NCBI RefSeq assembly: GCF_050003625.1
Contig: NC_134397.1
Span: 97,572,162 to 97,636,161, forward strand
Reading direction: 5' to 3'
DNA from: Haematobia irritans
Taxonomy: Eukaryota; Arthropoda; Insecta; Diptera; Muscidae
DNA: 64,000 bases
Shown here: in pieces, positions 2,884-28,212 of the stretch
Position numbering within the stretch: position 1 is the stretch's first letter
How the letters are laid out: each line of letters starts with the position of its first letter
Made by a program: the position numbers and the translations under genes
Notes under the pieces: generated by a model
Told to the model about the DNA's origin: nothing
The model's database searches: none
What the model saw: only the letters and a program-made list of their open reading frames with translations

Positions 2884-2885
<2 letters not shown>

Positions 2886-2915: not shown

Positions 2916-2916
<1 letters not shown>

Positions 2917-2975
2917 AAATTCCAAATTGTGGAGTCCAGAACTTTTAATCTAAGCAAACAGATACATAATTTGTA

Positions 2976-3450: not shown

Positions 3451-3524
3451 TGTGAAATAGTTTTACACATATAAAGACCTCTTTTCACAGAGATATAAAA
3501 TTAAAAAGGTTTATATTCCAACAA

Positions 3525-4850
<1,326 letters not shown>

Positions 4851-5802: not shown

Positions 5803-5919
5803 GTTTATTTAGTTTACTTATTTATCCAACATATATAATACAAAAAGTCTTATGAGCAATAAAACTGTATTACGTAGCATATAAATCCTGAGTATCAATA
5901 TGTAACATTCAATGATAAT

Positions 5920-7282: not shown

Positions 7283-7475
7283 CGAACTTTACCTGCCTGC
7301 AAACAAAAGACGAATCTATGCCAACTTTCAGAACAATATGTTAGCTCCATTATTGAAGACGGCAGCGTGATTACAACAGACAGACGGATGGTTATAACGT
7401 CTTAGAATTTCTCCATGATCAAGAATATATAGACTTTATATAGTCGGAAATCGGTATTTAATAATAATTAATAAT
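7283..7475 (+). repeat. Family R / fly interspersed repeat fragment
   Basis: The words ACAACAGACAGACGGATGG, CGTCTTAGAATTTCTCC and GATCAAGAATATATAGACTT are characteristic of fly family-R-type repeats. Non-coding. It fills the space between two LINE fragments. Confidence 0.6.
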
Positions 7476-7489
7476 AATAATACTAAGCT

Positions 7490-7640
7490 AACAGGTTAGG
7501 TTAGGTTAGATGGCAGCCCAATGTATCAGGCTCACTTAGACCATTCAGTCCATTGTGATACCACAGTGGTAAACTTCTCTTTTATCACTGGGTGCTGCCC
7601 GATTTCATGTTAAGCTAAATGGCAAGGGACCTCGTTTTTA
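7490..7640 (-). repeat. 3' end of a LINE with GGTTAGGTTA tail
   Basis: Starts (plus view) GGTTAGGTTAGGTTAGATGG, followed by the conserved CTCACTTAGACCATTCAGTCC and TTGTGATACCACA also found at the 3' ends at 34890-34959, 36711-36781 and 48629-48710. Beyond about 7570 it differs from family L (TGGGTGCTGCCCGATTTCATG), so this 3' UTR seems to belong to a sister LINE family sharing the same tail. Confidence 0.7.
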
Positions 7641-7680
7641 TAGCCGGTGAACCGTCTCCGAAGCGTGGAAAGACTCAAAA
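7641..7680 (+). mobile_element. 40-bp scrap of the Himar-like mariner
   Basis: The segment GTGAACCGTCTCCGAAGCG and the following GGAAAGACTCAAAA match, with about one difference, positions 10364-10397 of the mariner transposase at 9648-10914. No other part of a mariner is present. It sits exactly between a LINE 3' UTR and a family L ORF2 fragment, like filler DNA at a repair junction. Confidence 0.7.
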
Positions 7681-9645
7681 AATTGCAATTCTCCCATCGA
7701 ACATTTGCCATCATAACAGCCTTCTCACGCAGCATGAGCTCTCAGGTAGCCAGGGGCATACCAACAGATTCTAGAGTCCAAGAATTTTATTGCAGGTTGA
7801 CTGTCTGAGTATATATTAATGCCCACATTTTTTGGAACATTACTTCTCAGCCAATTCGCCACCTCAGCCTGAAAAACACTACAGTGATTAGGTAATCTTT
7901 TCGCTATTCGAAGTTCCAGATCATTAGAATATACTATGAAACCCAATTATCCATCCAATTTGGAGCCATCAGTGTAGAAATCTATATATTCTTTATTCCC
8001 CCGGGTGTGCACCACGCTTCACTGTTGGGGATTAGAGTCTCAAACTTTTCGTCGAAAAGTGGACTCGCCAAAGTGTAATCCACTACGTTAGACATCTGGC
8101 ATTATTTTGAGGACCGAACTGTGACCGTAACTTTTTTCCGACCAAAGCGATAGCTCGCGCAACCGTACAGCCGTTGTTGCAGCTGACTGTTTGGCCAAAA
8201 TGTCTAAAGGCAATAGATGCAGCATGACATTAAGGGAATTTGTTCCTGTCTTGCTGAATGCGCCTGAGATACACAAGCACGCCATACGCTGAACTTTGTC
8301 TAAACTTGTCGGCTGGTGAAGTGCCGGCCACCAGACTACAACACCATGTAGCATTATAGGTCTAACCACTGCCGTGTATAGCCAATGCACAATTTTTGGT
8401 TTTAGTCCCCACTTTTTTCCTATTGCCTTTTTGCACGAGTACAAAGCTACCGTTGCTTTTCTCGCCCTTTCTTCAATATTAAGCTTAAAATTCAGCTTCC
8501 TGTCCAAAATAACGCCAAGGTATTTTGCACACTCACCAAAGGGAATTTCAATACCCCCTAAGAAAATGGCCTAACAGTGGGAGTTTTGCGATCTTTGCAG
8601 TACATGACTAGTTCTGTCTTTGCAGGATTTATCCCAAGACCATTCTCTTTCGCCCATTTCTCAGTCATCCGGAGGGACCTCTGAATAATATCTCTAATTG
8701 TGGATGGGAATTTTCCCCTGACTGCCAGAGCCACATCATCTGCGTATGCCACCACTTTTATCCTTTCTTTTTCTAGAGTAACCAGAAGGTTATTTATAGC
8801 AACATTCCAAAGAAGAGGTGATAGAACTCCTCCTTGGGGAGTGCCTCTGCTCACATACCTTTGTATGTTTGCTTGTCCTAGTGTGGCTGAAATACGTTCG
8901 TCTAACAGCCTAAGTATACATGGATCAACATTCAGAGTTGTCAGTCCATTTAATATCGAGCTCGGATGGACATTATTGAACGCCCCTTCGATGTCTAGAA
9001 ACGCCACAATTGAGTATTCTTTGACAGATAGTGAGCTTTCAATAAAGCTGACTAGTTCATGTAATGCGGTCTCAGTAGACCTGCCCTTCAAGTATGCATG
9101 CTGTCGTTTCGAGAACAAACTAGAATCGATGCTAGTTCTAAGATAAATATCTATCATCCTCTCCAGAGTCTTAAGTAAGAATGAGGATAAGCTGATTGGT
9201 CGGAAATCCTTCGCCCTCGAGTGAGAGGCTTTTCCCGCTTTAGGTATGAAAACGACTTTTGTTTCCCTCCACTTTCCTGGGATATATGATAAGTTTATAC
9301 ATCCTTTATATATCGCCGACAACCAGGGGATAATTTTGTCTGTCACTGCTTGTAACTCCGCCGGAGTAATTCCATCAGGTCCGGGGGATTTGAATGGTCC
9401 AAAGCTATTTAAAGCCCATCTTATTCTAGATTCCGATACAATTTCCTCGATAGGAAACGACCGCTGAGCCACTGTGGCACCGCCAGAACCTGGTTCAACC
9501 GTCTGATTTCCAGGAAAATGTGTGTCCAATAGTACCTCCAGCGTATCCTCACTGGACGTTGTCCAATTGCCCTCCAATGTTTTAATGAAACCTGGAGCGG
9601 TGTTGGTGGATGCTAGAACCTTCCGTAGTCTGGAAGCCTCGGACG
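7681..9645 (-). pseudogene. LINE family L ORF2 fragment (RT to RNase H), broken
   Basis: Non-LTR retrotransposon polyprotein, reading leftward. The segment 9640-8558 is one long frame (about 360 codons) holding the reverse transcriptase: KSPGPDGITPAELQ, DFRPISLSSFLLKTLERM, FLDIEGAFNNVHPSS, GTPQGGVLSPLLW and the catalytic YADDVAL box. The next frames (8507-8088, 7946-7725) cover the thumb region and the RNase H stretch (NIYSDSQPAIK). It is broken by frameshifts near 8560 and 8090 and by a deletion around 7770. A few codons are lost near 8905 (DER in place of DELLMKRR). The 5' end stops exactly at the TA target of the mariner at 9648. No endonuclease or ORF1 remains. Confidence 0.9.
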
Positions 9646-9647
9646 TA

Positions 9648-10914
9648 ACAGGTTTGCTGATAAGTCCCCGGTCTGACACATAGATGGCGTCGCTAGTATT
9701 AAATACATATTATTTTTATATAGTACCAACCTTCAAAAGATTCGAGTCAAAATTTGACGTCTGTAAGTCAATTAGTTTGTGAGATAGAGCGTCTTTTGTG
9801 AAGCAACTTTTGTTATTGTGAAAAAAATGGAAAAAAAGGAATTTCGTGTTTTGATAAAAAACTGTTTTCTGAAGGGGAAAAAATACGTTGGAAGCAAAAA
9901 CTTGGCTTGATAATGAGTTTCCGGGCTCTGCCCCAGGGAAATCAACAATAATTGATTGGTATGCAAAATTCAAGCATGGTGAAATGACCACGGAGGACGG
10001 CGAACGCAGTGGACGCACGAAAGAGATGATTACCGACGAAAACATCAAAAAAATCCACAAAATGATTTTGAATGACCGTAAAATGAAGTTGATCGAGATA
10101 GCAGAGGCCTTAAAGATATCAAAGGAACGTGTTGGTCATATCATTCATCAATATTTGGATATGCGGAAGCTCTGTGCAAAATGGGTGCCGCGCGAGCTCA
10201 CATTTGACCAAAAACAACAACGTGTTGATACTGAGCGGTGTTTGCAGCTGATAACTCGTAATACACCCGAGTTTTTCCGTCGATATGTTACAAAGGATGA
10301 AACATGGCTCCATCACTACACTCCTGAGTCCAATCGACAGTCGGCTGAGTGGACAGCGACCGGTGAACCGCCTCCGAAGCGTAGAAAGACTCAAAAGTCC
10401 GCTGGCAAAGTAATGGCCTCTGTTTTTGGGATGCGCATGGAATAATTTTTATCGATTATCTTGAGAAGGGAAAAACCATCAACAGTGACTATTATAAGGC
10501 GTTATTGGAGCGTTTGAAGGTCGAAATCGCGGCAAAACGGCCCCATATGAAGAAGAAAAAAGTGTTGTTCCACCAGGACAACGCACCGTGCCTCAAGTCA
10601 TTGAGATCGATGACAAAAATTCATGAATTGGGCCTCGAATTGCTTCCCCACCCATCGTATTCGCCAGATCTGGCCCCCAGCGACTTTTTCTTGTTCTCAG
10701 ACCTCAAAAGGATGCTCGCAGGGAAAAAATTTGGCTGCAATGAAGAGGTGATCGATGAAACTGAGGCCTATTTTGAGGCAAAACCGAAGGAGTACTACCA
10801 AAATAGTATCAAAAAATTGGAAGGTCGTTATAATCGTTGTATCGCTCTTGAAGGTAAGTATGTTGAATAATAAAATTTTTCTTTGTTAGACCGGGGACTT
10901 ATCAGCCAACCTGT
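9648..10914 (+). mobile_element. Himar-like mariner element (irritans subfamily), 1267 bp
   Basis: Terminal inverted repeats ACAGGTTTGCTGATAAGTCC (left) and GGACTTATCAGCCAACCTGT (right) differ by a single base in the last 20 positions. TA dinucleotides flank both sides (9646-9647, 10915-10916), the mariner target duplication. Length and ends match the irritans subfamily, typified by Himar1 of the horn fly. The two flanks belong to unrelated repeats (LINE family L at left, family R at right), so the TA flanks need not come from one insertion. Confidence 0.95.
9827..10870 (+). pseudogene. mariner transposase, two frameshifts
   Basis: A cut-and-paste transposase with N-terminal helix-turn-helix DNA binding and a D,D34D catalytic core. 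Translation starts at the ATG at 9827 (MEKKEFRVLIK). An extra A in the run at 9880-9885 shifts the frame after GKK. The body continues in the frame 9888-10445 (WLDNEFPGSAPGKST; WVPREL; TKDETWLHHYTPE, containing catalytic Asp 1). A missing T near 10427 shifts it again, and the last part is 10440-10870 with FHQDNAPC (Asp 2) and YSPDLAPSDFFLF (Asp 3). WVPREL and YSPDLAPSDFF are signature mariner motifs. Catalytic residues are all kept, and the only obvious lesions are the two one-base indels, so this is a fairly young dead copy. Confidence 0.93.
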
Positions 10915-12822: not shown

Positions 12823-13904
12823 CGAGGGCAGTTCGGAAACTCCTTAGCCTAGCACAAAAAGCGCGGTATAAACAGAAAAAAGTTAAGTGTTTTGGAAACT
12901 TCCATCTCTGTTATGAACACATGTTAAATTTTGTTTCGATCTGGCAACTCCTTGATATTGAAACGGGTGTTCAAAAAAGACGCATCCGCAATTTTTTTAC
13001 CATGAAAAAATTAGAAATGCGTGCTGTCATTAAATATTTACATAAAAAAGGTTTATCGGGACAAGAAATTCATAATGATATGGTGAATGTGTTAGATGAA
13101 AGTGCTCCTCCATATGCAACAGTAAAAACATGAGTTGCTGAATTTAAAGGTGGTCGTACAAGCTTTGAAGATGAAGCACGTAGTGGCCGTCCAAAAACAG
13201 CAACAACAATAGAAATTGTAGCCGAATTGCATGATATGGTATTAAATGATCGACGAATAAAAGTGCGTGAAATTGCTAATACCAGTATAATGGGCATCTC
13301 AAATAATCGAGTCCATTTAATTTCGCATGAAGAAATACAGATGAAAAAGCTTTCTGCGAGATGGGTGCCGCATTTGTTAACAGTCGATCAAAAACACATG
13401 AGAATGAAAATTTCTCAAGCTTGTTTTGATCGTTTTAAGGGAAATAAAATGAATTTTAAGCGTCGTTTCACAACTGTTGATGAGACATGGATCCACCACT
13501 ATACTCCAGAGACAACAACACAAAAAAATAATTTTTCATCAAGACAACGCACGAGCACACAAGAGTGTTTTAACAATGGCTAAAATCAACGAATTAAAGT
13601 ACGAGTTGCTTGACCATCAGCCTTATTCTCCTGATTTAGCTCCCAGTGACTTTCACTTGTTCCCAAATCTAAAAAAATTCTTGCTGGCAAACGTTTTACC
13701 TCCAATGAAGATGCAATTACAGTTGTAAGCCACTATTTTAAAGACCTTGAGGAAAACTATTTTAATCAAGGGATAGAATTGCTAGAAAAGCGTTGGACTA
13801 AGTGTATTGAAGTTTCAGGAGATTATATTGAAAAATAAAAATATTTTTGAAAAACTAACTATTCTCTTTCATTGATAGGCTAAGAAGATTCCAAACCGCC
13901 CTCG
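12823..13904 (+). mobile_element. Second mariner, 1082 bp, inserted in Tigger
   Basis: Inverted ends CGAGGGCAGTTCGGAAACTC and, inverted, CGAGGGCGGTTTGGAATCTT, flanked by TA at 12821-12822 and 13905-13906. The terminal repeats differ from the Himar-like element, so this is another mariner lineage. It is shorter than the usual 1.3 kb because of an internal deletion in the transposase. Confidence 0.9.
13002..13838 (+). pseudogene. Second mariner transposase, defective
   Basis: A D,D34D transposase reading from the ATG at 13002 (MKKLEMRAVIKYLHKKGL). A TGA at about 13132-13134 stands where Trp is expected before VAEFKGGRTSFEDEARSGRP. It goes on with WVPHLLTVDQK and TVDETWIHHYTPE (Asp 1). About 180 bp between that motif and KKIIFHQDNA (Asp 2) is deleted with a frame change near 13520. 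YSPDLAPSDFHLF (Asp 3) follows, then another frameshift near 13720, and the tail ends at 13838 (DYIEK, stop). Non-functional. Confidence 0.9.
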
Positions 13905-13906
13905 TA

Positions 13907-14513
13907 GCCGCTGTAATGATGCCTGGAAAAATATCAACCCTAAGACTCTTAAAAACTGTTTCAAAAAGTGCGGGTTTAGACAAACAGATAATGAGCCATA
14001 GTTATCAGAACTATCAATATTTTCGAGTACGGACCCTGGGTGGGGACTTCTACCTAAAGGTGAGTATTAAGTTCGAGTTTAGCAGCTAAAATCGTCATTT
14101 TTTCACTAAAGTGAAAAGTAAATCAGTAAAATAAGGCATACAAATATGCTTATTTGTTGCAAATTTTATAAAAATTTGACGGGGAATAGCTTAACGCAAA
14201 TTTTCACAAAGTTTGTATTACTTAAAATTGATTATTAAAGAAAAGTAATCGTGAAAAAATTACGATTTTAGCGGCTAAACTCAAACTAAATGCCCACCTT
14301 AACTTTGGAGATTTATCTTTTAAGGACTTTGTTGAAGTTGATACTGACATCTGTGTTTATGGAGTTCTTACTGATGCTAAACTTTTAGACTTGGACAAAA
14401 ACAAGGAGGAAAATGAAGAAGACCAATCGCTGAATACAGTCACATTGAGCGATGAAAATAAATCTATTAATAACATACGCTCCTACGCCCTTAGAACTGA
14501 CACAAGTGACTAA
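13907..14513 (+). pseudogene. Tigger transposase C-terminal end, split by a MITE
   Basis: The reading resumes right after the mariner with DAWKNINPKTLKNCFKKCGF, the highly conserved end of the Tigger DDE domain (DAW...TI.NCFRKAGF). It has a stop near 14002 and is interrupted by the MITE at 14058-14299. Beyond it comes an acidic tail (DFVEVDTDICVYGVLTD ... NKEENEEDQS) ending at a stop at 14511-14513, as in family members. Together with 12690-12822 it shows the host element was once autonomous. Confidence 0.85.
14058..14299. mobile_element. 242-bp MITE with TAA target duplication
   Basis: Ends AGGTGAGTATTAAGTTCGAG and, inverted, AGGTGGGCATTTAGTTTGAG continue into long sub-terminal inverted repeats (GTTTAGC.GCTAAAATCGT.ATTTTTTCAC). 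TAA occurs on both sides (14055-14057, 14300-14302). A 3-bp TAA duplication suggests PIF/Harbinger; this classification is an inference. It is nested in the Tigger transposase tail. Confidence 0.85.
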
Positions 14514-14797
14514 TTCTATTCAGCACTCATAACAATAGAAAATGTATTAGAAAATGTATTAGATAATGATAGATCGCTGACTAGAAGAAAATAACACATT
14601 TTATAAATAAAATGAATTAAAAATAATTTTATTAATACTCTTGTTTATTTGAACTTTTTCTCTGTTCTCTACGATAATTTGAACTCTTATTATTTTGAAG
14701 CTCTTGGTAATTTGAACTTTTTCTCTTGTCCCTTGAGTTTTAAATTATCGAGAGTCGACTGTAAAACCTTTACCACAGTATGACGCAGGGTATAAAA

Positions 14798-15245
14798 AGC
14801 GTTCTTATTACTTGGTAAGTTACCATACAATTTTGATTGAGCAATCATAAACGCTTTACTAGTTGCTTTACTAGTTTATTTTTGTCTCGATTTTTTCAAA
14901 TCGTTTTACACATGTAAGGACCATGTACATGGTTGTACTAATCAAAATTATTTCACGGGTAAATAACTATTTTCATAGAGATAAAATAAAAAAAGTGTTC
15001 TTATTACTTGGTAAGTTACAATCATGAATGAGCAAACAAAAAAGGCTTTACTAGTCGCTTCACTCATTTAATTTCGACGCGATTTTGCGTCAATTTTGTG
15101 AAATAGTTTTACACATTAAATACCAGGTAAATGGTCATTTCACCGATAAGTAACTCTTTTCATAGAGATAAAATATGAAGTGTTATTATTTCGTTAGTTA
15201 CCATACAATTGTGAATGAGCAATCAAAAAAAGCTTTACTAGCCGC
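14798..15245 (+). repeat. Tandem repeat, about 2.4 units of 182-195 bp
   Basis: The phrase TTCTTATTACTTGGTAAGTTA occurs near 14804 and 14999, and a diverged TTATTATTTCGTTAGTTACC near 15181. Each is followed by GAGCAA(T/A)CA...GCTTTACTAG, GTTTTACACAT and TTTTCATAGAGATAAAATA. Units differ by substitutions and small indels. A related partial unit lies at about 3460-3510. Confidence 0.8.
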
Positions 15246-15804
15246 AAATTGCTAACAAGGGAATGGTTGCAGGGAAAATGTAGATTTATATTCACCACCT
15301 CGAAATCTGAAATATTTTCAAAACAAACATGTTTTCTGCAACTAACATTATTTCTGTATGCTGTATGATTTATGTTCAACAATACTTTTCACTGTTTGAA
15401 TGCTTCCTGCATGTACACATTTCATATACGATTACAAGTTACCATACAAATTGTAAGGTACGAGGTATAATTGGTAAGACCATTTGTGTAAGTTCTTTCA
15501 ATTGCCCTTCCTACGTTCAATCAACGTCCTTCTATATTGTCTTTCTGCCCTTAAATCTCGTATATAAGACCCATTTGCAAACATCACAATTTACACTCCA
15601 TCAAACATATACAAATAAATAATTTTTACGTTATTGTTTTTCATATTCAAACACTGTTCAGAAATAAATTTGAAAGATTTAAGACATGGTATCGATATGA
15701 CAGAATTATACATAAAGTCTTCAGTGTGAATATAATTTCGAATTACAGTCACTGTAATACTACATTTGCACTCGTTTTTCATTCGTTCAGTGTTGTACAC
15801 CTAC
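15246..15804. other. AT-rich stretch, nothing recognised
   Basis: No supported repeat or gene. Frames at 15194-15382, 15329-15622 and 15591-15800 show no domain. If the minus-strand exon at 15805-15948 is real, this would be its 3' UTR side; no canonical AATAAA was noticed on the minus strand near it. Confidence 0.4.
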
Positions 15805-15948
15805 CTATCTATTCGCTGTCTTCCATTCCACATATAAGAATACAATTATAACAACAATGGCAGCTATATACACCTTGATAATATGAGGCCACGAAAGAGT
15901 TTCGACTATCTTCTGAAATGCTATTGTGTCCACAAATCCATATCCAAT
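15805..15948 (-). CDS. Possible 3'-terminal exon of a host membrane protein
   Basis: On the minus strand, a pyrimidine-poor but AG-ending acceptor (ATTTTTAG) precedes 47 codons and a stop. The peptide contains FQKIVETLSWPHIIKVYI followed by a strongly hydrophobic run (AAIVVIIVFLYV) and a polar tail EWKTANR. This looks like a single C-terminal membrane anchor with a short tail. I do not recognise the family. It lies among MITEs, and no upstream exon is evident within a few kilobases. It may be a genuine last exon or a captured exon, as seen elsewhere in the window. Coding status is inferred from composition only. Confidence 0.35.
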   Translation of the reverse strand: MGYGFVDTIAFQKIVETLSWPHIIKVYIAAIVVIIVFLYVEWKTANR

Positions 15949-16204
15949 CTAAAAATTAGACGATAATTACAATATTTCACGCAAAGGCCAATATTCTTCA
16001 AATATTGCAATCACTTATTCGGGATCAAAAATTTTCACTTAACAAAATTGAGAATTACGACAATAGTGTTGGTAAAATACCGAATAGTTCACAAAGTCGT
16101 AGTCGATAATTGATTTTTCATTAAGACGACTACATAATGCACCCTAAATCATCCGCAACTTAAGACGAACATTAGGTCTGTTCGCCTACTTACTTACTTA
16201 CTCA
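15949..16204. other. Spacer without recognised content
   Basis: AT-rich sequence. If the exon at 15805-15948 is real this would be intron. No feature supported. Confidence 0.35.
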
Positions 16205-16740
16205 TACTACGTTCGCACTAGACACGAAATCCTCGTAAAGGCCGGTACTCTGTTCGGTTTTCGCGTTGAAACTCCATACAAAACCAAAAAATGCGAAAAA
16301 TTTGCGAAATTTTTTCCATTTGTGATACTATGTTTTTTCGTGTTGAAAAACTGACGTTTATAGCACGGCGCCATTTGCAATGTGAATTAAGAAATAATTT
16401 ATTTATTAAAAACTATTTGTGCGGGTTTATAAATCAAACACGGACCATATTTTTGTTCCGAAACTATACAAAGGATCAAAGGAATAGCAGATCAATTGCC
16501 CAAGGAAAAATAAAATGTTATTTTCTAAAAACACGCAACAACCACCAACTTAATCCAATATCGCTCCCTGTAAAACAGCGCTCCAAGCTATCTAAAAAAA
16601 CGCCGCTTTCTATGTGCGAAATAATGGTTTCCATAAAAATTTTTCGCAAGAATGAACATAGTACCGGCCTTAAAAGAGGATTTTGGCCGAAACCCTCCTA
16701 GATATCAGTAGATTTGCAATAGTCAAATATCAGCAGGCTT
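16205..16740 (+). mobile_element. TACTACGTTCG MITE, left part, hosting another MITE
   Basis: Begins TACTACGTTCGCACTAGACA, the left end of the element complete at 17444-17832. After the nested element (16239-16670) it resumes with GAGGATTTTGGCCGAAACCC and TCAGTAGATTTGCAATAG, as in the other copy (17489-17545). It is cut at about 16740, where the CCCTGCC family begins. Confidence 0.8.
16239..16670. mobile_element. AGGCCGGTACT MITE (432 bp)
   Basis: Ends AGGCCGGTACT and AGTACCGGCCT, flanked by TAA (16236-16238 and 16671-16673). The uninterrupted target seen at 17470-17490 (CTCGTAAACGAGG) confirms both borders. A second copy lies at 22352-22767. An internal frame of 136 codons is shared by the two copies but has no known domain and is shortened in one, so it is not called coding. 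TAA duplication suggests PIF/Harbinger. Confidence 0.8.
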
Positions 16741-16815
16741 TTTGTGTAATACCAAGTGCAACTTGCTTGCTATAATTTATTTAAATAAAAATGAAAAAGA
16801 AGTGCTAAAAACATA

Positions 16816-17229
16816 AGGGCTGTTTTCTTTTTGCACTGGATACAAAATTTTTATGGGCTATCCAGAACATCGTTGCACTGGTGTTCTATCCAGAACATCT
16901 CATCAGTGCAAGTCGCGCCGATGTTGCCAGATTGTGTTTTGATAAAGTGACGCTTTATCGATTCACAATAGCACTTTATTGTGACTAATTTATTGAAAAA
17001 TATGGAATTCAAAGTGGTATAGTGTCATAAACAATCGCAGCAGTAAATATTTATTACTAATTGGAGCATTTCATACATTAAAAATGCAAGATTTAACTTC
17101 TTTTCTGTGATTGTTTTTGAACAGCTGATGACAGTGTTGCATATTTTTGATGTCCTGGATAAACGAATACTCTGTTTTCTTTTAGTCCTTCACGGCTTAG
17201 GGTATCCAGTGCTAAAAGAAAACAGCCCT
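16816..17229. mobile_element. AGGGCTGTTTTC MITE, complete (414 bp)
   Basis: Left end AGGGCTGTTTTCTTTTTGCA and right end TGCTAAAAGAAAACAGCCCT are inverted copies about 28 bp long. ATA on both sides is a likely target duplication. A full second copy in opposite orientation is at 29646-30062 and a fragment at 528-630. No transposase. Confidence 0.88.
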
Positions 17230-17443
17230 ATAGTTATTTCGCTTAAAATTGGGAAAGGTATATTGGTGAATAATTTCCGAATTTCCAAATGGAATTAAGT
17301 GATATAAAATTATTCATAAATAATTTACTGACAGTTTATCGAAGGAATTTATATGGAAGGTTTAAAATTTACGTTAACTTTTATTAATATGGCGGATAGT
17401 TTTTCAAGTATTTTTCCAGACACGCTACATCAATCGAGAATAA

Positions 17444-17832
17444 TATTACGTTCGCACTAGACACGAAATACTCGTAAACGAGGATTTTGGCCGAAATCCT
17501 CCTCGATCTCAGTAGATTTTCAATAGGCAAATATCAGCTGGCTCGTAAAGGATTTCAACAAAATCTCTTTCAAAATCCCATATACTGCATTGTACAACTA
17601 TGGTTTTAGTACTGAAAATGCGCTTTTTGCAACCCTGCCCCAATTTTCCTTGTAGATGAATGTGCGTGTGCGTGTACACATACGGGTTTGTGTTTGTATT
17701 GATATATTTACAAACAGCTGTTATATCCTAAAATCTACCAAATCTCGTTATTTTTCCATTCCGAACACTTGAGATTTGTAAAGAGATTTTGATTCTAAAT
17801 AGCGATATTACGTGTCTAGTACGAACGTAGTA
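17444..17832. mobile_element. TACTACGTTCG MITE, complete (389 bp)
   Basis: Ends TATTACGTTCGCACTAGACA and TGTCTAGTACGAACGTAGTA are inverted repeats, flanked by TAA at 17441-17443 and 17833-17835. The interrupted CCCTGCC MITE reads continuously across the site (GAGAATAA...ACTGATAGA). Fragments of the family lie at 16205-16740 and 25513-25562. Confidence 0.85.
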
Positions 17833-18243
17833 TAAACAAACGACTGATAGATGCTGCAACATGCAACTTGCTACGTGTAAAGCAACATCGTTCTTTTATT
17901 AATGAAAAAAGTTATGTTCAATGTGATGAGATAAATTAATAAACATCTACACAATCGTGTTTTACTTGACCACAATAATACTTTTACCTCTACCTTGAAG
18001 TGCACTTTTTCTGATAGTTTAAAGGGGCTCTTATTGGCGTCGTTCTAAATTGATCTAAAAATGCACCTAATAATTGCTCTGATGAGAAACTTTTTTGTAG
18101 TAACTTGGCGTGGTACAACTTCTCAATAGTGACGGCGCTTTTCCGACGAGTTCTTGATGTCGTATACGATTGTTTTCCACGTGGTGGGGATTCTCAGTAG
18201 TGCCGTCAAATTCAAAAAATGTTGGCAGGGTTGAGATTTGTTA

Positions 18244-18430
18244 ATGCGCTTTACAGACTATCAGTTATTCCGGACGGAATGTCGGTGTTTGTGTCGGATC
18301 GATACGACTTGTCGGCGATGACTAAATAATCGGTAAATGTGTTATCGATCCCATAAACATGCAGCAGTATCGATAATGCCTTCAGACTTAAAGCGGACCT
18401 TAGACGGTCGGATAAACACTACGACAGAGG
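18244..18430 (+). mobile_element. GCGCTTTACAGACTATCAG MITE, left part
   Basis: Starts ATGCGCTTTACAGACTATCA, then TTATTCCGGACGGAATGTCG and GGATCGATACGACTTGTCGG. The same series appears at 25026-25267, and the right end at 25268-25512. The right part of this copy is missing. Confidence 0.75.
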
Positions 18431-18743
18431 TTCGCCTATTTGTTGTGTGTTCGTTCAAGTTTTACCCTCACACTACACGAACAATTATGATAAGAACATG
18501 AAGAAATAAGAAGAAGCATAAACACAAACAATGAAGATGGACGAAAAGTTAGGTGTAAAGCCATTTTTTTAGTAAAAATAAAAGAAACTGTTGCAGAGGT
18601 CCTATAGTAATAGTAAAAGAAAAGAAAAAAATCATCGCATAAAATTTTTTTAATCCACACTAGGGTGCATCATTGCATACGGAAACGAGCCAATTGCCAA
18701 TTATACTGTGGTACTATAAGCTGGTGTGTGGGCATGAAATGTC
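18431..18743. other. Spacer, nothing recognised
   Basis: AT-rich DNA; the minus-strand frame at 18436-18660 has a signal-peptide-like hydrophobic stretch but no family resemblance. Not called. Confidence 0.35.
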
Positions 18744-19253
18744 GTGAGGAAAATAGCCTCTATACCGAGTGTAATTAACTCAGAATCAAAGTCTGAGTTA
18801 ACTTATCCATGTCCGTCCGTTGCCCCGTATATTTTTGTCCGCGAAATTGTATATATATTTTTTTTTGCACCGGCATCCCTATTTTATTTTAGTTTTACAC
18901 ACATACATGTGAATGGCGGGCCTATTCGAATGAATAGACGGCTCAATTATCGACGGCGTTACCTAGTTATCGACCCATATATGTGCCGCAGGTCTTCAGC
19001 CTATGTTTGTGGAAAGACAATGGAGGCCCACGACACATCTTATGGGGGACAATATTATTTTGCTATTGGATGCATTTTTTGTCGTTCAGCGGGAGCTGGA
19101 GCATCGATAGGCAATGGTGGTGGTCGTATGGAGCCCCAGATTATGGCCAATGTGTGGTATTTTTTTTCGTACGTATGCGCCAATGTAGGTTATCAAGGCA
19201 TATTAATCCAGGTAAAGTCCATAGTCCAAGGAAGGTATAGACATCTCAAGTGA
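18744..19253 (+). other. Unassigned 169-codon open frame
   Basis: An open frame longer than chance neighbours (starts MRKIASIPSV) with a hydrophobic patch at about residues 32-50 and a Gly-rich patch (AGAGASIGNGGGR) at about residues 116-128. A second overlapping frame of 85 codons is also open, so openness is not diagnostic. The start region resembles family R text (TTATCCATGTCCGTCCGTTG). I recognise no protein family; coding function is doubtful. Confidence 0.2.
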
Positions 19254-19824
19254 ATTCACAGCGCTGTAGTTTGTCTGCACACCGTAGATGGCTCTTTCTC
19301 GTCTGCAATTGAGTGATTTTTTAATTTGGCTTTAATTTGTTTTCTTTCCTTTGTTCTCTCGTTGAAACACCAAATATTGTGAAAGTTTATAAAATACTGT
19401 TCATCCACACCTTTTTTGTAATGCAAATTGACTAATTTATACGGTTATTCTCGTTTTCCAAAAAGAAATTGAGTCACTTGACTGCGCAATTGAGTGGAAT
19501 GACTGCGCACTGCAAATAAACAAAACCATGGTGAATTATCAAGGTATGTCTCTATATTTTCTTGGTCTATGGTAAAGTCATGCAATCAGGTGACTAATAT
19601 CGACATTCATCTTGTCAAAGGCTTTGTTTACGTTAATAGATTTGTTTACATTCTTTGTTTACATATATATTGCTTTTATTTACATTGTATTATTAGTATG
19701 GGGTTAGTTTTACGAAACTTTTGCCTACTTGTTAGAAACTGGGGAGAAAATAAAATAATTTTCTTAAAAAACTCTTTTATTTGTATATATACTATGTTCA
19801 CAAAAACGTAAACCCGAATTCATA
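19254..19824. other. Spacer with a possible orphan first exon
   Basis: Mostly AT-rich. AACCATGGTGAATTATCAAG followed by GTATGTCTC (19525-19553) has a Kozak-like start and a donor-like GTATGT, so it could be a tiny first exon captured with the neighbouring gene fragments, but nothing identifies it. Confidence 0.3.
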
Positions 19825-19989
19825 GTGCGCAAAATTACAATTCGGGAACAGCTCAAAGAATCACAATATGACGGAGGCATAAGGCAAATAAATGTTGAAG
19901 AATGTATTGCTAAACTGAAACACTATGGTCCGAGTGTACGAATTGAGGCATTAAGGAATCTAAGAGATGCAATAGCAATAAATCATGGG
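19825..19989 (+). pseudogene. TEX10/Ipi1-like exon fragment
   Basis: After an acceptor-like ATTCATAG, about 55 codons read VRKITIREQLKES...[29 protein letters not shown]. This resembles the N-terminal segment of TEX10 homologues (human: IHLPEQLKE ... [29 protein letters not shown]), which act with the Rix1/PELP1-WDR18 complex in 60S ribosome maturation. Only this piece is present; the reading then passes without a gap into RTEL1 sequence. Identification is from remembered family pattern and is moderate; its fragmentary state is clear. Confidence 0.5.
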
Positions 19990-20740
19990 ATCCCTATGAA
20001 GTTCAAAGAGCTTATATGGAAAAGGTCATCATATGTCTACGAGATGGATCAAATGGTTTTCTGGAATCCCCAACGGGTATACAATAATATATAACAATGT
20101 AACCACCAATAAAACAAAAACTTTCTCATAGGAACCGGTAAAACCTTATGTTCATCTTTGGAATGGCTGCAATCCCGAAAAGAGGAAATGAAGATGCAAA
20201 TACAACAAACAGCACCGCCACCAATTATTTTAAAAACAATCCTATTTAGGCGGAGCACCTGTAAATGATTGCTCGTGCAAAGCCCAAGGGTGGTAGCTGG
20301 GGTCTTCCGAAAATAATATATATAATGGATACTTGAGGTACCCATTCACAACTAACGCAAGCTATGTAAGAATTAAAGCGGACATCTTACTCATTTACGA
20401 GAGCGGTGGTGTTGGGATCCAGAGATCAATTGTGTATATATCCCGAGGTATTGCGAGAACAGGGCAATTCAAATAAAACACAGATCGATTTGTCGATAGC
20501 GAGTCCAAAAAAGAACTTGTGCCTTTCATCATCGTGTGGAATCGCGCAAAGATGATCTGGATTTAATGGACATTGAAGACTTGGTTAGAGTAGGTAAAAA
20601 CTCAAAATGTTTCCATATTATGGAGCCAAAGAATTGATTGAAGATGCAAACAATGTATTTATGTCTTATAACTATTTATTGGGCACATCTGCGCGAAAAG
20701 CAAATAGAATTGCATTGAGCAATACCTCATATTATCGGAA
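19990..20740 (+). pseudogene. RTEL1: RTEL1 helicase N-terminal fragment, decayed
   Basis: RTEL1 is an iron-sulfur XPD-family DNA helicase acting on telomeres and recombination intermediates. The reading [19 protein letters not shown] and then [13 protein letters not shown] (Walker A) is split by a 55-base intron at 20077-20131 (donor GTATAC, acceptor CATAG) that joins in frame through the GTGKT loop. Further pieces in shifted frames: [59 protein letters not shown] and [10 protein letters not shown]. At least four frameshifts and several stops make it inactive. The retained intron means it was copied from genomic DNA, not mRNA. Confidence 0.8.
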
Positions 20741-21146
20741 AGATAAATAATAAATAATAAATAATTTTTATGATTTTTTATAATTTTTAATGGATTCTAA
20801 CGCTTGTCTGAAACGAATGACCTCAAATATTTTCAAAAATTCATAATTTTGTCAGATTGAATTTAGCATTTTTTCGACAAAATTTAAATAATTTGTACCA
20901 TTTTATGAATTCTTAAACAGTTTTTAACCAATTTGAAACAAAAAATTTAACATTACCAATTAAAAATATGAATAAAACATGTTATAAAAAATTGAATGAA
21001 AAGAACTTCCTGTGTAGTTAAAATGAAGAACATCATTGGGAGTACATCTTCTGGAAGTTCTTTTAAAGTTGTGCCTTTGTAAGAACTTCCAAATTTTTTG
21101 ATGGGTAACTCTGCACTTCTGCCACATAGGATCAGCAATAATTTTT
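20741..21146. other. Spacer with a short AAGAACTTCC repeat
   Basis: AT-rich. At about 20999-21092 AAGAACTTCCTG and CTGGAAGTTCTT form an inverted pair, followed by another GTAAGAACTTCCAAA. This resembles a common fly mini-element, but I cannot fix its ends. Confidence 0.35.
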
Positions 21147-21656
21147 TATAAAATAGCGCAATGCCTCATGCAAACGATCCATAAATTCTGTTCCTGGTGT
21201 AATACAATTGCTACCGAATCGTTCGTGTTCTCTCACTTCACCTAGGCTCTGTGCTAATCGTTCCAAAGTTCAGCTTCCTTGGCTGAACGAAAACGTCTAC
21301 TAAGCTGTTGATTCATTTTTGCACGAGGGGCCACGCCGTCAATGGCCATAAAGAATAATTTCTGTGGTTTAATTAGAAAAAACAACTTATCAATATAGTT
21401 GAATATGTCCTTCAACATATCCTCCTGTTATGTTGAGATGGATGTTTGTATCATCGGAATGGGAGCAATTGTGAATAATGTCATTCATATCCAAATAAAG
21501 ATTATCAAAATCGGGAACCCAAATAGAATACACAAGAAGCTCATAATTATTTCCTCCAACTTGTTACATGTCACTCCACACTTACGCATTGTTCCCAGGC
21601 CAATTCACTGAGACAAGGATACCGTTCGCTTATGTAGCGGAAAAATTTCGCCCCAT
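21147..21656 (-). pseudogene. pcm: XRN1 (Pacman) 5'-3' exoribonuclease N-terminal fragment
   Basis: XRN1 degrades decapped mRNA. Minus-strand sequence starts at an ATG (21656-21654) with a 4-nt loss just after it, then SERYPCLSELAWEQC, a GTAAGT donor at 21585 and an intron-like gap of about 67 bases. It goes on with FDNLYLDMN, DIIHNCSHSDDTNIHLNI (metal-binding Asp region), [29 protein letters not shown] and FGSNCITPGTEFMDRLHEAL. These are hallmark XRN N-terminal motifs. The acceptor AG appears changed to GG, and there are frameshifts in the middle and near [10 protein letters not shown]. Sequence upstream of the ATG may be 5' UTR and ends at the palindromic element at 21677. The retained intron indicates a DNA-level copy. 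Confidence 0.88.
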
Positions 21657-21676
21657 TTTTTGTTGTTGTTTTGTAT

Positions 21677-22090
21677 AGGGCCGGTATGCACCTCTAGCGT
21701 AAAATTTCATTCCCATAAGAAATGCATTGCTATTTATGCTAACGAAATTTTCGGTAGCGTTCAATTTCGTAAGCTGGTACGCACCTCTAATGAAAATAAC
21801 AGGGTTGTCAAAAGCATATTTTGGCAGCAAACATTTAATTTATTACAATCATTGTGTGCGTAAACGCTTTAAAAGGTCTGTAAATAATAAACAAATTATT
21901 TGAGAAATATTTGGAACATATATTAACAATTTTTAAAAGCGATTAGCTTGTTTAAAATTTGTGTACACAGCCCTGTTTTTTTAAACCAGCTAATCGCTTT
22001 TAAAAATTGTTAATATATGTTCCAAATATTCCTCAAATAAATTGTTTATTATTTACAGACCTTTTAAAACTTTTACGCACACAATGATTG
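21677..22090. mobile_element. Palindromic AGGCCGGTATGCACC element, copy 1
   Basis: The left arm begins AGGGCCGGTATGCACCTCTA and runs through GCATATTTTGGCAGCAAAC, GGTCTGTAAATAATAAAC and AAAGCGATTAGCTTG. The second arm (about 21985-22090) is the reverse complement but stops short at CACACAATGATT, so the right terminal repeat is missing. A longer copy with both ends is at 56096-57276. Non-coding. Confidence 0.8.
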
Positions 22091-22351
22091 GCACACAGGC
22101 CAAAAGAGCACGCGAAAGTGCTCTTTTTTCTGCATCACAACAAATATTAATCAAATGGTAAAAGTAAACTGAAAATATGTAAATGTCGCACTAAGAGATT
22201 TTCCTAGCCGTTATTTTCTAATTAAATAGTGTGTTATCAGAGTCGTAGAAGAGCATGCCGATGTTGCTTCTTCACTTTTTACTCTGTTCTAAATATAAAC
22301 AAACTTCTTCAATAACGTTTTTCACAAAAACACCAAAAAATGACTTAAGTC
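22091..22351. other. Probable DNA-element remnant
   Basis: Contains a 10-bp perfect hairpin AAAAGAGCAC/GTGCTCTTTT (22102-22127). The GTGCTCTTTTT word recurs at about 22925 and 22946, suggesting that 22091-22982 was one element now split by the MITE at 22352-22767. No coding sequence. Confidence 0.35.
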
Positions 22352-22767
22352 CGGTACTCTGTTCGGTTTTCGCGTTGAAACTCCATACAAAACCAAAAAA
22401 TGCGAAAAATTTGCGAAATTTTTTCCATTCGTGATACTTTGTTTTTTCGTGTTGAAAAACTGACGTTTATAGCACGGCGCCATTTGCAATGTGAATTAAG
22501 AAATAATTTATTTATTAAAAACTATTTGTGCGGGTTTATAAATCAAACGCGGACCATATTTTTGTTCCGAAACTATACAAAGGATCAAAGGAATAGCAGA
22601 TCAATTGCCCAAGGAAAAATAAAATGTTATTTTGTAAAAACAAGCAACAACCACCAACTTAATCCAATATCGCTCCCTGTAAAATAGCGCTCCAAGCTAC
22701 CTAAAAAAATGCCGCTTTCTATGTACGAATGGTTTCCATAAAAATTTTTCGCAAGAATGAAAGTATT
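22352..22767 (+). mobile_element. AGGCCGGTACT MITE, second copy, truncated right
   Basis: Nearly identical to 16242-16657: CCGGTACTCTGTTCGGTTTT, GACGTTTATAGCACGGCGCC and GGATCAAAGGAATAGCAGATC. The right terminal repeat (AGTACCGGCC) is absent after CGCAAGAATGAA. There is a small internal deletion near 22727 relative to the first copy. Confidence 0.85.
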
Positions 22768-25025
22768 GTATTTACAAAGTATTGTAAGAAAATTAGCATG
22801 AGTTGAAAGTGACTTATTTTATGTTTATGGTATGTACCTTTTTGCTTTGTTTAAATGAATTATATTTCAATTAAATTAAATGATTTTCTTTTATTTGAAA
22901 AAGTGTGCTCTATTCCTTTCGTATGTGCTCTTTTTATAAGCTGAATGTGCTCTTTTTGCCTCTTTAAAATCTGGCATCCCTAGCCTATGAGGAGTCGGCC
23001 AGTTAGTTATTTATGCAGATTGTGTGTCCGGGCAGCTTAGGAAAACAATTTGATGTTTTTATGCGGCAATTTGCGCTATTGTTGTTTGCGGCGTGGTCTA
23101 TGGTTCGTGGTGGAGTGTCAGCTGGTTAGATAGATGACAGGTTAACAAGTAGTAAGAGGGCGTTGTTACACCGTAGCACCGTAGGGTTGCTCGGAGACCA
23201 TAAATTCATTCATGAAATCCCACGAAGCATGGGGAATGAAGACTATAAAACACAAAAGCAAAAATAAGTAAAATTGTAATAAAACAGAATTTAAACTTGG
23301 TTTTAGGAGAAAGGGACAGATATTAGTCTAAAATATGGCGCAGAGGCGCTTGGCTTGATAAAACCAGGGGTATATATAGCGCAAAAGATGTCAAAAGTTG
23401 CCATTTTAGCAAATTGTATTTTTAAAGCGTTTGTGTGAAACGTTTGGCGGTTAATACAAATAGAAAGATAATTAAATAAAGTATGTGCTTATAATAGTGT
23501 CGTAGAGCAGTGAATTTGAAATATTTCGTTTTTTTTTAGAAACTATAGATTGAAATTTTCAAACCGGAAAGTTGAGAGGAATTTAATTCAATCTTGGGGT
23601 TGCAATTAGTGATATTGAAAGTAATAAAGTAAGTTACTCAAGTGATGGTAATCTAAAGGAATATGAATTTAATAAAATTTTTTATCAGGTCTGGAATAGC
23701 CTCCTGTATGATCAGGAGGCGCTAAACTTTTTATGCAAAAATCGTTTTTTTTCTACTGGAGAAACTTAACTGGTGAAGATTAGTTTCAAGAAACATCTAT
23801 TTATTTTTGGTTGCTACAATCCTGGAGAGAGTCACCTCATAGTGCTGGTTCCTGTAGGATCAACTACCTAAACAGAACCGGGGAATCGCCAGGAAGTAGA
23901 GCAATTTAATAATATCTACCAAGGTAGGAGTATCAATAAATACCAATGAAACAATCCGTCCAACGTCCGATATCAAAACTCACTTTGCTTTAAAAATCCC
24001 ATAATATCAGAAAATTTTATGGGCAATGCCCAAAGGAAAATCCAAGGGCATCCCAGTTTAACAGTTTAAAGAACACTATAAGGCGGAGGGAGAGTGCCCG
24101 GAAGTGAAACCGTTTTTTTTACAATCTATGAACATATGTATCTATTCTATTACACAAATTTGATCTAAACGACTATTATTGAATTTACATTTTTTTGATT
24201 AATATTTTAGTATAAGTATATTTTTGCCTTGTTGTCCATTCCAATATTTAGTTTTCATTGTCAAGGGCTATACAAAGTCACATAAGTAATTTCATTTGTT
24301 TTCTTTGGAGGGTTATTATTTTGATATCTAATCCCCAACATTTCCACTTAACTGAGCTCGATTAGGTAGGAAGTTAGAGTAAAAGTAAATCCCCATTGGA
24401 TTATGAACGTTTAAGGCTTTGTAGGTTCCATATTTATATTCATTAAAAAGGATAAAAAAGATGTTTAGTTATAGTAAATGGTAAACTTTCAGTGTTTTCA
24501 TGGTTTATTAAATGATAAGAAATTTAGTTTTATTTTGTTAATTTTAATTAGTGACAAGAAAATGAGAAATAAAAATGTATCTTGATTTGAATATTTGTAG
24601 CGAAATTATGTGCTAATTTTTGATTTGTTGAGGGGGGATATGTGATGATAAACGGAGTGAAGCAAGGTTTTGTGGGGTTCATAAAAATTGGCGAAAAGGT
24701 ATCTGTGAACCATGGTTGGGAGGGTAGAGTGGGAGGTTTGTCTATCAAAAAACCTCATTCAACCTATATGTCCCTTTGTGTTTGTAAGTGTGTTATCGAC
24801 AGTTGTAAGTTCCTTTTTTTCATGTTATACCTCGGGCTAGGTTTCGGCGGGTTGAGGACCGTCCTGAGAGAGATTGAGTGTGCCGGAGGGCCAAGCCTAG
24901 TACTATATGGGGTCATAACAAAACAATGAAAATTCCAAGCTGAATTAGCGATCCCTCATTAATTTCATTGCAGAAATGCTTGGTTTAATTATGAAAATAA
25001 TGGTAATGTTTGGCGAACAACCCCT
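22768..25025. other. About 2.3 kb without recognised genes
   Basis: I find no protein family or confident repeat. Noted: GTGCTCTTTTT repeats to about 22982; a perfect 8-bp hairpin GCCTCCTG/CAGGAGGC at 23699-23720; a TATATATAG core-promoter-like word near 23371; a 95-codon frame at 24642-24929 without a recognisable domain. The region between about 23150 and 24100 has more even composition and could be a decayed LTR element or old gene sequence, but nothing decisive is visible. Confidence 0.35.
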
Positions 25026-25267
25026 TATGCGCTTTACAGACTATCAGTTATTCCGGACGGAATGTCGGTGTTTGTAAAGAATCTTACAGTGTGTCGGATC
25101 GATACGACTTGCCGGCGATGACTAAATAATCGGTAAATGTGCTATCGATCCCATAAACATGCAGCAGTATCGTTTATGCCTTCGGACTTAACTTATAATA
25201 TGCACAATATATGGGATATGTTCAACATGAGCACTGTCGTCCGGAATAACTGATAGTCTGTATTGCG
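25026..25267. mobile_element. GCGCTTTACAGACTATCAG MITE, complete short copy
   Basis: Left end ATGCGCTTTACAGACTATCA, then GTTATTCCGGAC; right end GTCCGGAATAACTGATAGTC followed by TGTATTGCGCAT: inverted repeats of roughly 30 bp. Internal text GGATCGATACGACTTGCCGG is shared with 18244-18430, and AACTTATAATATGCACAATA with 36025-36151. Confidence 0.82.
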
Positions 25268-25512
25268 CATTACACGTGAAGATTTGTGCCTCCCAACCGG
25301 AAAAAAGTCAAAGTTGTTTTGATTTTATGCCAACACGTCCCCCAACACACGAACATGACCTTATACTAGCGTATTTGTCGCCGCAATGTGTTGGGTCGCA
25401 GGGTTTATCCGACCGTACAAGGTGCCCTTAACTTATAATGTGCACAATATATGGTATATGTTCGACACGAGCACTGTCGCTCGGAATAACTGATAGTCTG
25501 TAAAGCGCATAA
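25268..25512 (+). mobile_element. Same MITE family, right half of a longer variant
   Basis: Contains GTTTATCCGACCGTACAAGG (its complement is in 18395-18425), TTAACTTATAATGTGCACAA and the right end CGGAATAACTGATAGTCTGT, AAAGCGCAT. It lies directly after the previous copy with no left end, so the two were probably joined by recombination. Confidence 0.65.
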
Positions 25513-25562
25513 GAGATTTTGGTTCTAAATAGCGAGATTTCGTGCCTAGTGCGAACGTAGTA
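25513..25562 (+). mobile_element. TACTACGTTCG MITE, right-end fragment
   Basis: AGAGATTTTGGTTCTAAATAG and GTGCGAACGTAGTA correspond to the last 50 bases of 17444-17832. Confidence 0.7.
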
Positions 25563-26165
25563 TTATATTATCATATTTGTCGCCTCAATGTTTACGTCGT
25601 GTCGTGAAGGCCTGTGCACAGGTGTGTGGGGGATACCAATGATTAGTGAAATAATAATGGAATCCCTGAAGAGTATGAGAAGTGGACTGTATCTTTGTAC
25701 TCTGCCAGCATTTCAAAGTTCCATTTCATCCTCATCGCTACCACAGACTCGTAAGTGACACTGCAACAATCGCCAACTGTGATATTATTTTGCCATCACT
25801 ATTCGCATGAAAGTATTTTGCCATCACTATTGTTACAAGAGCCATTTAATATGTTGTGAAACACCAAGCACAACTAGCTTCATATGTCCATATTCATAAT
25901 ATTTTAGTGACAGTTTATCGAAGGAATTTGTATGGTAATAGTAGGTTTAAAGTTAACGTTAACTTTTATGAATATGGGGGTTATAATTAATTTAAATAAT
26001 ATTATTTTTATTTAAATAAATTATAAGGAGGTCTGAAAACATAGTTATTTCGCTTAAAATTGTGAAAGGTATATTGGTGAACAATTTTTGACTTTCCAAA
26101 TGGAATAAAGTGATAGTTTTTCAAACATTGGGAATAAAGGCACTGGCTGATAGACGCTACAACAT

Positions 26166-27238
26166 CCCTGCCAGCATTTCAAAGTTCCATTTCATCTTCA
26201 TCGCTACCACAGACTCGTAACTGTCACTACAACCATCGTACTGTGATGGGGGCAGCATATCATAAAGTACAAAATGTACTTCATACATGTATTTTGCCAT
26301 CACTACTTTTACAAAAGCCATTTTATTTTTTGTGAAACGCCAAGCGCAACCAGCTTGTTATATTTTATTTGAATAAAAACGAAAATAAAGTTCTGAAAAC
26401 ATAGATTTTACGCTTAAAATTGTGAAAGGTATATTGGTGAACAATTTTTGATTTTCCAAATGGAATAAAGTGATTATTTTTCAAATATTTTACAGACACG
26501 CTGCCTCCATCGAATAAAAACACTGGCTGATAGACGCTGCAACATGTAACTCGCTACTTGCAACTCTACATCATCATTAACCCTGGAAAGTCATCCTTAT
26601 TTTTTGTACACAAACGTCATCCTTCGTCATTTTGACTACGGCTTATTTCAAGACGCTATAATTTACATCGTAAGCAAAAATAACAACAAAAATTCACTTT
26701 ATTTTCTTATTCAATTTGTTTTTAATTAGTATAAAACAAAAATTTATACATTTGTTGAATTAGTATAACTTAAATTTATCATTTCCCAATCGACTAAAAT
26801 GCATTTTAAACCGAAAATGAAATTTCGCGTCGTCATTTTGACGAAGGATGACTGTCCAGGGTTAATGCAAAAAATTATGTTAAATGTGATGTGATAGTGG
26901 TATAAATGTTATATTTTTAAGAATTTGTAAATGATTAATCAAATTAATAAATATCTAAACAAACGTGTTTTACTCGACCACAATGATTCTTTTACCACTA
27001 TCTTAAAATGTGCTTTTTCTGATTGTTTGGAGGGTCTCTTATTGGCGTCGTTCTAAATTGATCTATAAAGGCACCTAATAATTGCACTCATGCGAAACCT
27101 TTTTGTAGTAACTTGGCGTGGTACAACTTCTCAATAGTGACGGCGCTTTTCCGACGAGTTTGTGATATCGTATATGATTGTTTTCGACGTACTGGGGATT
27201 CTCAGAAGCGCCCCCAAATTCAAAAAATGTTGGCAGGG
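26166..27238 (+). mobile_element. CCCTGCC MITE, copy C, nested in copy B
   Basis: Left end CCCTGCCAGCATTTCAAAGT, right end CAAAAAATGTTGGCAGGG. Without the piggyBac-type insert it is about 790 bp, the size of the copy at 62295-63069. This element inserted into its own family member, so it is the younger of the two. Confidence 0.85.
26581..26862. mobile_element. piggyBac-type MITE (282 bp) with TTAA duplication
   Basis: CCCTGGAAAGTCATCCTT and, inverted, CCCTGGACAGTCATCCTTCG form the ends, and TTAA is present on both sides (26577-26580, 26863-26866). piggyBac elements insert at TTAA and have CCC-starting ends. No transposase. Third level of nesting: inside copy C inside copy B. Confidence 0.9.
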
Positions 27239-27652
27239 ATGTAACTTGCAACTTGTAACTCAACATCAATCTTTTATTAATGCATAAAAATATGTTAAAT
27301 ATGATGTGATAGTCGTATAAATGTTATATTTATGAGAATTTATAAATGTTTAATAAAATTAATAAACATCTAAACAATCGTGTTTTACTTGACCACAATG
27401 ATTCTTTTACAACTATCTTAAAATGCACTTTGTCTGATTGTTTGAAGGGGCTCTTATTGGCGTCCTTCTAAATGTATCCAGAAGGGCACGTAATAATTGC
27501 ACTCATGCGATACTTTTTGTAGTAACATGGCGTGGTACAAATTCTCAATAGTGACGGCGCTTTTCCGATGAGTTTTGGATATCATATACGACTGTTTTCG
27601 ACGTAGTGGGGATTCTCAGAAGCGCTCCCAAATTCAAAAAATGTTGGCAGGG

Positions 27653-28212
27653 TATATGCACATTTATTATTTCTCAAGTTAATGAGAAATAATAAATTAA
27701 AATCCAAACGAAACCCAACCGGAAAGTGAAATAAGAAGATGAACAACGAATGAGTTTCAATTTATAACAACACATTTATTGAAGATAAAAAAGGGAAATA
27801 GACAGGAGAAAAGAAGAGAGGCTCACCTTTATGATGCGGCAGGAAAATTAGCAGTGAACGATAGAAAAGAAACTTAAAACCAGCTAACTTAATGTACTAA
27901 ATTTTTATATGCAATAATTCACAATAGATTTTAATTCAGCAATTTGACAATTCAAAATATTAATTTACTTATGATTTTAAAGGAAATTCATTAACAATAA
28001 TTCAGTTTATAATTCAATGTTTATTTACAATAATTCAATTTAGTTAATTTTTAGAAATTCAAAATTCAATTGACAAACGTGAAGTTTGTCCATGCCCCCG
28101 GCCTTGCACTTATGTAAAATTCGATTTGCAAAACACGGTAGCGATGGACTTGATTGTCTCGGCCAAAATATGCTGGTTACGCTTGGGACGTTGGTTGGAG
28201 CGTCTCTTTTTA
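27653..28212. other. Spacer with a perfect hairpin
   Basis: TTTATTATTTCTCA (27663-27676), loop AGTTAA, and its exact reverse complement (27683-27696). The remainder is AT-rich; a more balanced stretch at 28070-28205 (CATGCCCCCGGCCTTGC) is not recognised. Confidence 0.5.

Follow-up and report, generated by a model that had tools for sequence, protein, structure and literature searches.

A dispersed Pack-type element of the horn fly, Haematobia irritans, carries joined fragments of TEX10, RTEL1 and XRN1

Gene shuffling by transposons with terminal repeats is well known in plants, where Pack-MULEs combine Mutator-type ends and target-site duplications of about 9 bp with chimeras of several genes. 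The same process in animals is thinly documented, and the horn fly case described here is well preserved. The available part of PMC6446971 names the plant Pack-MULEs and describes the arthropod Mutator lineages Rehavkus and Phantom, with duplications of 9 bp or 8–10 bp and terminal repeats of at least 26 or 18 bp. Muta1 of Aedes aegypti belongs to the Mutator family, and about 20% of its non-autonomous derivatives contain host-gene sequence, some of them in multiple copies (PMC5225508, in part). In a survey of animal Pack-TIRs, the insect reference genomes yielded none and multi-copy cases numbered only four; for most animal Pack-TIRs it supports gap filling with template switching as the model (PMC8277862).

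We analysed a window, the whole stretch of 64,000 nucleotides of repeat-rich fly DNA at C1:97572162-97636161 in the 1.17-Gb genome of H. irritans, in which the block at 19815-21676 consists of joined genomic pieces of TEX10 (plus strand), RTEL1 (plus strand) and XRN1/pacman (minus strand), introns included (Table 1). This block represents a damaged copy of an element of about 2.1–2.2 kb that is dispersed and lacks a transposase; very probably it is a non-autonomous cut-and-paste transposon, namely a Pack-TIR with Mutator-like 9-bp duplications. Compared with the plant Pack-MULEs, its host is a fly, and any kinship through the transposase is putative. Like the Muta1 derivatives, it resides in a dipteran and holds host-gene fragments, and the Muta1 duplications measure 8–9 bp; the Muta1 example given in the available text is a single 276-bp piece of a kinase gene, whereas three genes are fused in the horn fly chimera, which further differs in its 37 junction copies, its surviving TEX10-only relatives, its different ends and the lack of a known transposase (PMC5225508). 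With the animal Pack-TIRs it shares a terminal-repeat transposon containing captured host DNA, for which gap filling and template switching are proposed in PMC8277862; the fly case treated there, the population polymorphism Ssk-FB4, has four copies and a single parent gene, whereas the horn fly element has three parents. The 9-bp duplications and terminal repeats also resemble those of Rehavkus and Phantom, although the horn fly element is without a transposase to compare (PMC6446971, in part). A term search found no Haematobia in the main text of the arthropod Mutator survey PMC13359780, and the element was not named in our literature search, whose coverage stopped short of most subscription journals. 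As far as the cited papers show, a three-parent, probably stepwise-built Pack-type element with dozens of copies in a fly is a new form of such elements.

Sequence comparison confirmed that all three fragments are real, beyond chance. In protein searches, the RTEL1 piece matched at E 1e-28 with H. irritans on top, the XRN1 piece at E 1.5e-32 with Musca domestica on top (H. irritans, 7.1e-32), and the TEX10 piece at E 3.6e-24, with 90% identity to H. irritans versus 69% to Stomoxys over 78% of the query. Pfam placed XRN_N (3.5e-22) in the XRN1 piece and DEAD_2 (8.2e-8) in the RTEL1 piece, and matched no family in the TEX10 piece. Among solved structures, the XRN1 piece recovered Drosophila Pacman (2y35, E 9.9e-22); the best match of the TEX10 piece reached only E 0.18 and that of the RTEL1 piece was only FANCJ, at 0.002, so for these two the identification relies on protein matches and native loci. 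The native genes were located at C3:13886657-13888591 (TEX10), C3:106889213-106901509 (XRN1) and C3:115822415-115825953 (RTEL1). When one chimera copy, L009, was aligned with these parents, it matched TEX10 (C3:13.887 Mb) over 173 bp without gaps at 90.8%, RTEL1 (C3:115.82 Mb) at 83.4% over 765 columns and XRN1 (C3:106.889 Mb) at 86.9% over 647 columns, the XRN1 match extending past the start codon into the native upstream DNA.

Frameshift-aware alignment of the window pieces revealed unequal decay. The RTEL1 piece covers residues 15-247 and is identical at 186 of 222 aligned positions, with four stops and three frameshifts. The XRN1 piece covers residues 5-165 and is identical at 146 of 157, with three frameshifts and no stop; its start codon is present and is followed by a small deletion. 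The TEX10 piece is in frame, with 6 differences among 59 positions over residues 31-89 (an alternative figure of 56/69 includes sequence past the breakpoint). Against outgroup proteins (n=3 each), the window branch accumulated 26-28 changes versus 1-2 on the native branch for RTEL1, 9-10 versus 1 for XRN1 and 5 versus 0 for TEX10; nearly all changes thus belong to the window branch, the pattern expected of non-coding debris. The RTEL1 intron retains GT...AG, and the XRN1 intron, 67 nt long in the window, has kept its donor GT and lost its acceptor AG. Both align to their native counterparts, so the source was genomic DNA, and an origin as a processed pseudogene or retrocopy was rejected on the same two retained introns. 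The initial annotation had read three unrelated host-gene fragments in these orientations, including an XRN1 5' end with its start codon, and had taken a retained 55-nt intron (RTEL1) and a 67-nt intron-like gap (XRN1) as a sign of genomic origin. The native alignments and protein searches bear this out, except for its statement that all pieces are frameshifted: TEX10 has neither frameshift nor stop. Two outcomes that it had set against itself, no match to these protein families and native genes neighbouring in this order, are not what we found: the protein matches hold, and the parents share one contig, C3, at distances of about 9 and 93 Mb.

Table 1. Parts of the element copy in the window (positions counted from the first letter of the window)
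Feature	Position	Strand	Remarks
Carrier left terminal inverted repeat, CAAGGCATATTAATCCAGGTAAAGTC	19194..19219	+	Identical to the left end in intact copies
Later nested insertion, ~351 bp	19220..19570	.	Between 9-bp duplications GGTAAAGTC at 19211-19219 and 19571-19579; coordinates taken by eye from the alignment
Remainder of carrier left end	19571..19814	+	Partly common to cargo-free MITEs
TEX10 fragment, ~residues 33-89 of 656	19815..19987	+	Ungapped match to native TEX10
RTEL1 fragment, codons 15-247 and short tail	19989..20747	+	55-nt intron at 20077-20131; tail past 20727 taken by eye from the alignment
A+T-rich interior stretch	20748..21105	.	Weak matches only, elsewhere in the window
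XRN1/pacman fragment, residues 1 to ~165, spanning 5' flank, exon 1, intron and a portion of exon 2	21106..21676	-	Match to native XRN1

An own-genome DNA search with the block returned at least 54 matching places (40 of 5029 candidates scored), which reduced to 37 loci after joining pieces less than 3.5 kb apart. The TEX10/RTEL1 junction, searched as 25 bases with up to two mismatches, was likewise found at 37 places (29 exact, seven with one mismatch and one with two) and at none with the reversed control; against viral_contigs, the junction pattern gave no exact match. Chimera copies reside on contigs C1-C5 and C12. Within the retrieved loci, the boundary at 19571 is kept in 17/20 and that at 21676 in 18/20, and the true ends lie further out, as terminal inverted repeats at both ends of the carrier (CAAGGCATATTAAT...GGTAAAGTC); the left end reads CAAGGCATATTAATCCAGGTAAAGTC and the right end, in reverse complement, CAAGGCATATTAATTAAAGGTAAAGTC. 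Genome-wide, each strand has 174 exact occurrences of the terminal motif, and the control has none. With end pairs allowed up to two mismatches and a spacing within 6 kb, 15 of the 20 retrieved loci have both ends and 9-bp target-site duplications, 14 of them perfect and one with a single mismatch; no terminal pair with duplications was found in the remaining five (L014, L017, L026, L027 and L028). When the left 9-mer of one locus was compared with the right 9-mer of another, at most 7/9 positions matched (n=210). One of the 15, at L025:3125-7561, holds two inverted chimeras between one pair of 9-bp duplications and may, as a compound, have transposed as a whole, and in L021 and L016 an expanded simple-repeat array of about 350 bp lies between the left end and TEX10. 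L011 and L015 contain elements of 246 and 418 bp that share the carrier's ends and lie between perfect 9-bp duplications; comparison with the chimera and with native TEX10 and XRN1 found no gene cargo in them. L037, considered as a possible autonomous copy, was rejected, as it is only a 246-bp-type element interrupted by other transposons.

The window copy is damaged at both ends. Its nested insertion is missing in 18/18 other chimera copies listed for the left end, and its weak inverted ends (19219-19279/19511-19572) were equalled in 0/60 shuffles; with ends CATAGTCCAAGG.../...CTTGGTCTAT and a 9-bp duplication of its own, it is perhaps another family that makes such duplications. On the right, most other copies extend about 195 bp beyond the point where the window copy stops, to the right terminal repeat; this end is gone from the window copy, and a truncated palindromic element now starts there. 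The initial annotation saw no carrier because the left terminal region is split by the insertion and the right end is lost. The A+T-rich interior stretch, of about 355 bp, found no match in the native TEX10, RTEL1 and XRN1 stretches compared.

Several other repeats surround the block. The palindromic element, with terminal repeats GGCCGGTATGCACCTC, is truncated beside XRN1 (21677-22090) and complete within a LINE at 56094-57275; as a carrier end it was rejected, being a separate truncated element that is not at the junctions of retrieved copies, and in L024 and L025 its copies lie about 70-400 bp outside the element. A MITE with terminal repeats GCGCTTTACAG occurs at 18244-18391, 25027-25510 (with both ends) and 36024; the copy at 18244 was likewise dismissed as a carrier end, since it is not at the junctions of retrieved copies and no right end of this MITE was found near the block. 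Mariner transposase frames at 9873-10870 resemble Himar1, the mariner first described from the horn fly. Rfam gave no match in the window at the gathering cut-off. Six-frame Pfam scans covering window positions 1-3692, 4601-8062, 12901-27862 and 59001-63982 gave weak hits to two further host genes, both taken as chance: SF3A3, with an E of 0.04, and S26e, at 0.021, whose stretch matched chain 5xyi at E 0.00045 but the fly chain 4v6w only at 0.053.

A genome search with TEX10 gave 75 matches, including the native gene and chimera-type pieces, and about 18 loci in the match table hold TEX10 sequence past residue 112. In a sample of five such TEX10-only loci (L034 and L038-L041, stretches of 1.9-3.6 kb), the left terminal motif was present in four, L041 matching the inner part of the left end only; TEX10 starts at the chimera's native position in L038, L040 and L041 and further in for L034 and L039, and the examined stretches of all five gave no RTEL1 or XRN1 match. 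One TEX10-only element, C3:53999487-54002399, retains the two ends and is flanked by a perfect 9-bp duplication, AGTAGAATT; in its 1.9 kb from TEX10 to the right end, the Pfam hits (E 0.0072 and 0.0024) stayed below their cut-offs and were not convincing. The same TEX10 deletion, joining residues 73-112 to 153-272, recurs at C3:53999733, C3:36349944, C2:104773117 and C2:97043111, so this TEX10-only form was amplified too. Since the TEX10-only relatives hold TEX10 sequence missing from the chimera, they cannot derive from it. Judged from these sequence relationships, capture was probably stepwise, TEX10 preceding RTEL1 and XRN1. Two frameshifts of the XRN1 piece, near residues 57 and 109, are present in 13/13 copies tested, indicating that the cargo was broken before it spread. 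Among 18 aligned copies (L024 and L026-L028 left out), the mean distance is 2.9% (0.4-5.8%), whereas the distance to native XRN1, taken for five copies, is 9.8-10.6%. The likely course would begin when an element captured TEX10 starting with the second coding exon; one TEX10 copy would then have lost TEX10 past residue 89 and gained the RTEL1 and XRN1 pieces, and the resulting chimera would have decayed before spreading to at least 37 places. Gap repair inside the element, with switches of template, may have joined the pieces; as the TEX10/RTEL1 join has one extra G and no evident microhomology, the switching is putative.

Could such a block have arisen without a mobile carrier, as a one-off repair patchwork or a local duplication of three genes at the site? 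Its flanks look ragged, and the stretch 18392-21666 is without a second copy within the window; set against the 37 junction copies genome-wide, with their common ends and 9-bp duplications, and against parents on a contig other than the window's, this origin is highly improbable. Neighbour duplication is excluded by the spacing of the parents on C3 and the position of the window on C1, and a local segmental duplication was rejected because the parents, at 13.9, 106.9 and 115.8 Mb, are not adjacent. Capture by a rolling-circle Helitron deserves no more credence, even though Helitrons do build multi-gene chimeras with introns: Helitron ends are of the form TC...CTRR, with neither terminal inverted repeats nor target-site duplication, whereas the horn fly element has both and ends in CAAGG...CCTTG, and is therefore not a Helitron. 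Where the initial annotation had offered Helitron or Pack-type capture, the Pack-type half stands and the Helitron half falls. Its proposed search for recurrent copies with common ends returned the junction copies and shared termini described above, and the two repeats that it had named as flanks are mere neighbours outside the element; its overall reading of a gene-shuffling carrier is supported.

Another origin keeps the carrier and changes the assembly: the pieces would first have been joined elsewhere as one patchwork, for instance in repeat-rich DNA, then enclosed once by a terminal-repeat element and spread. All three parents lie on C3, and the copies cluster in parts of chromosomes, both of which favour this course. 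In intervals of 25 Mb that were picked after the fact, C1 holds 10/12 loci (0/5000 uniform simulations), C2 7/11 (10/5000) and C3 4/6 (273/5000); the signal is absent on C4 (2/4) and C5 (2/3), and the small contig C12 has one more locus. Low recombination in such regions might account for the clustering. Against a single enclosure, the TEX10-only elements share the join between left end and TEX10 and carry TEX10 past residue 89, which argues that TEX10 entered first, and we consider prior assembly unlikely. Within the stepwise capture that we prefer, RTEL1 and XRN1 may have entered together.

The features found are those of a Pack-TIR: terminal inverted repeats, duplications of fixed length, captured host DNA with known parents, and a carrier that also exists without cargo. 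The 9-bp duplication is Mutator-like, being typical within the 8-11 bp range; duplications of 9-10 bp also occur in Foldback FB4, so this length is not exclusive to Mutator (PMC8277862, in part). The six frames of copy L009 contain no transposase domain. The Mutator transposase domain PF10551 was detected at 22 genome places, short or with stops, which are a possible transposase source. Two of these loci, when inspected, showed only look-alikes of the carrier ends with at least three mismatches, and each of the six hits on C1 lies more than 200 kb from any listed C1 terminal motif (judged by eye); neither a transposase nor an autonomous partner was found among these 8/22 hits. Placement of the carrier in the Mutator superfamily, based on duplication length, is therefore tentative. 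The terminal ends and 9-bp duplications nonetheless point to a transposase acting in trans with a 9-bp staggered cut, which would be what moves the chimera.

The horn fly sex chromosomes correspond to elements A and F (PMC7144080, in part), and C3, which holds all three parents, may be the young sex-linked element A. It is a doubtful extension, and one that we would give little weight, that the family is a continuing gene-shuffling system that took up host genes in succession and whose dozens of copies, with sense and antisense pieces of TEX10, RTEL1 and XRN1 in repeat-rich regions, might feed small-RNA pathways modulating the parents. Because cargo-free, TEX10-only and three-gene forms coexist with the native parents in one genome, capture order, breakpoints and later spread can be read directly. 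These coexisting forms make the mechanism testable, as gap filling versus transposition-linked capture, and the dozens of insertions offer material for studies of populations and small RNAs in this pest of livestock.
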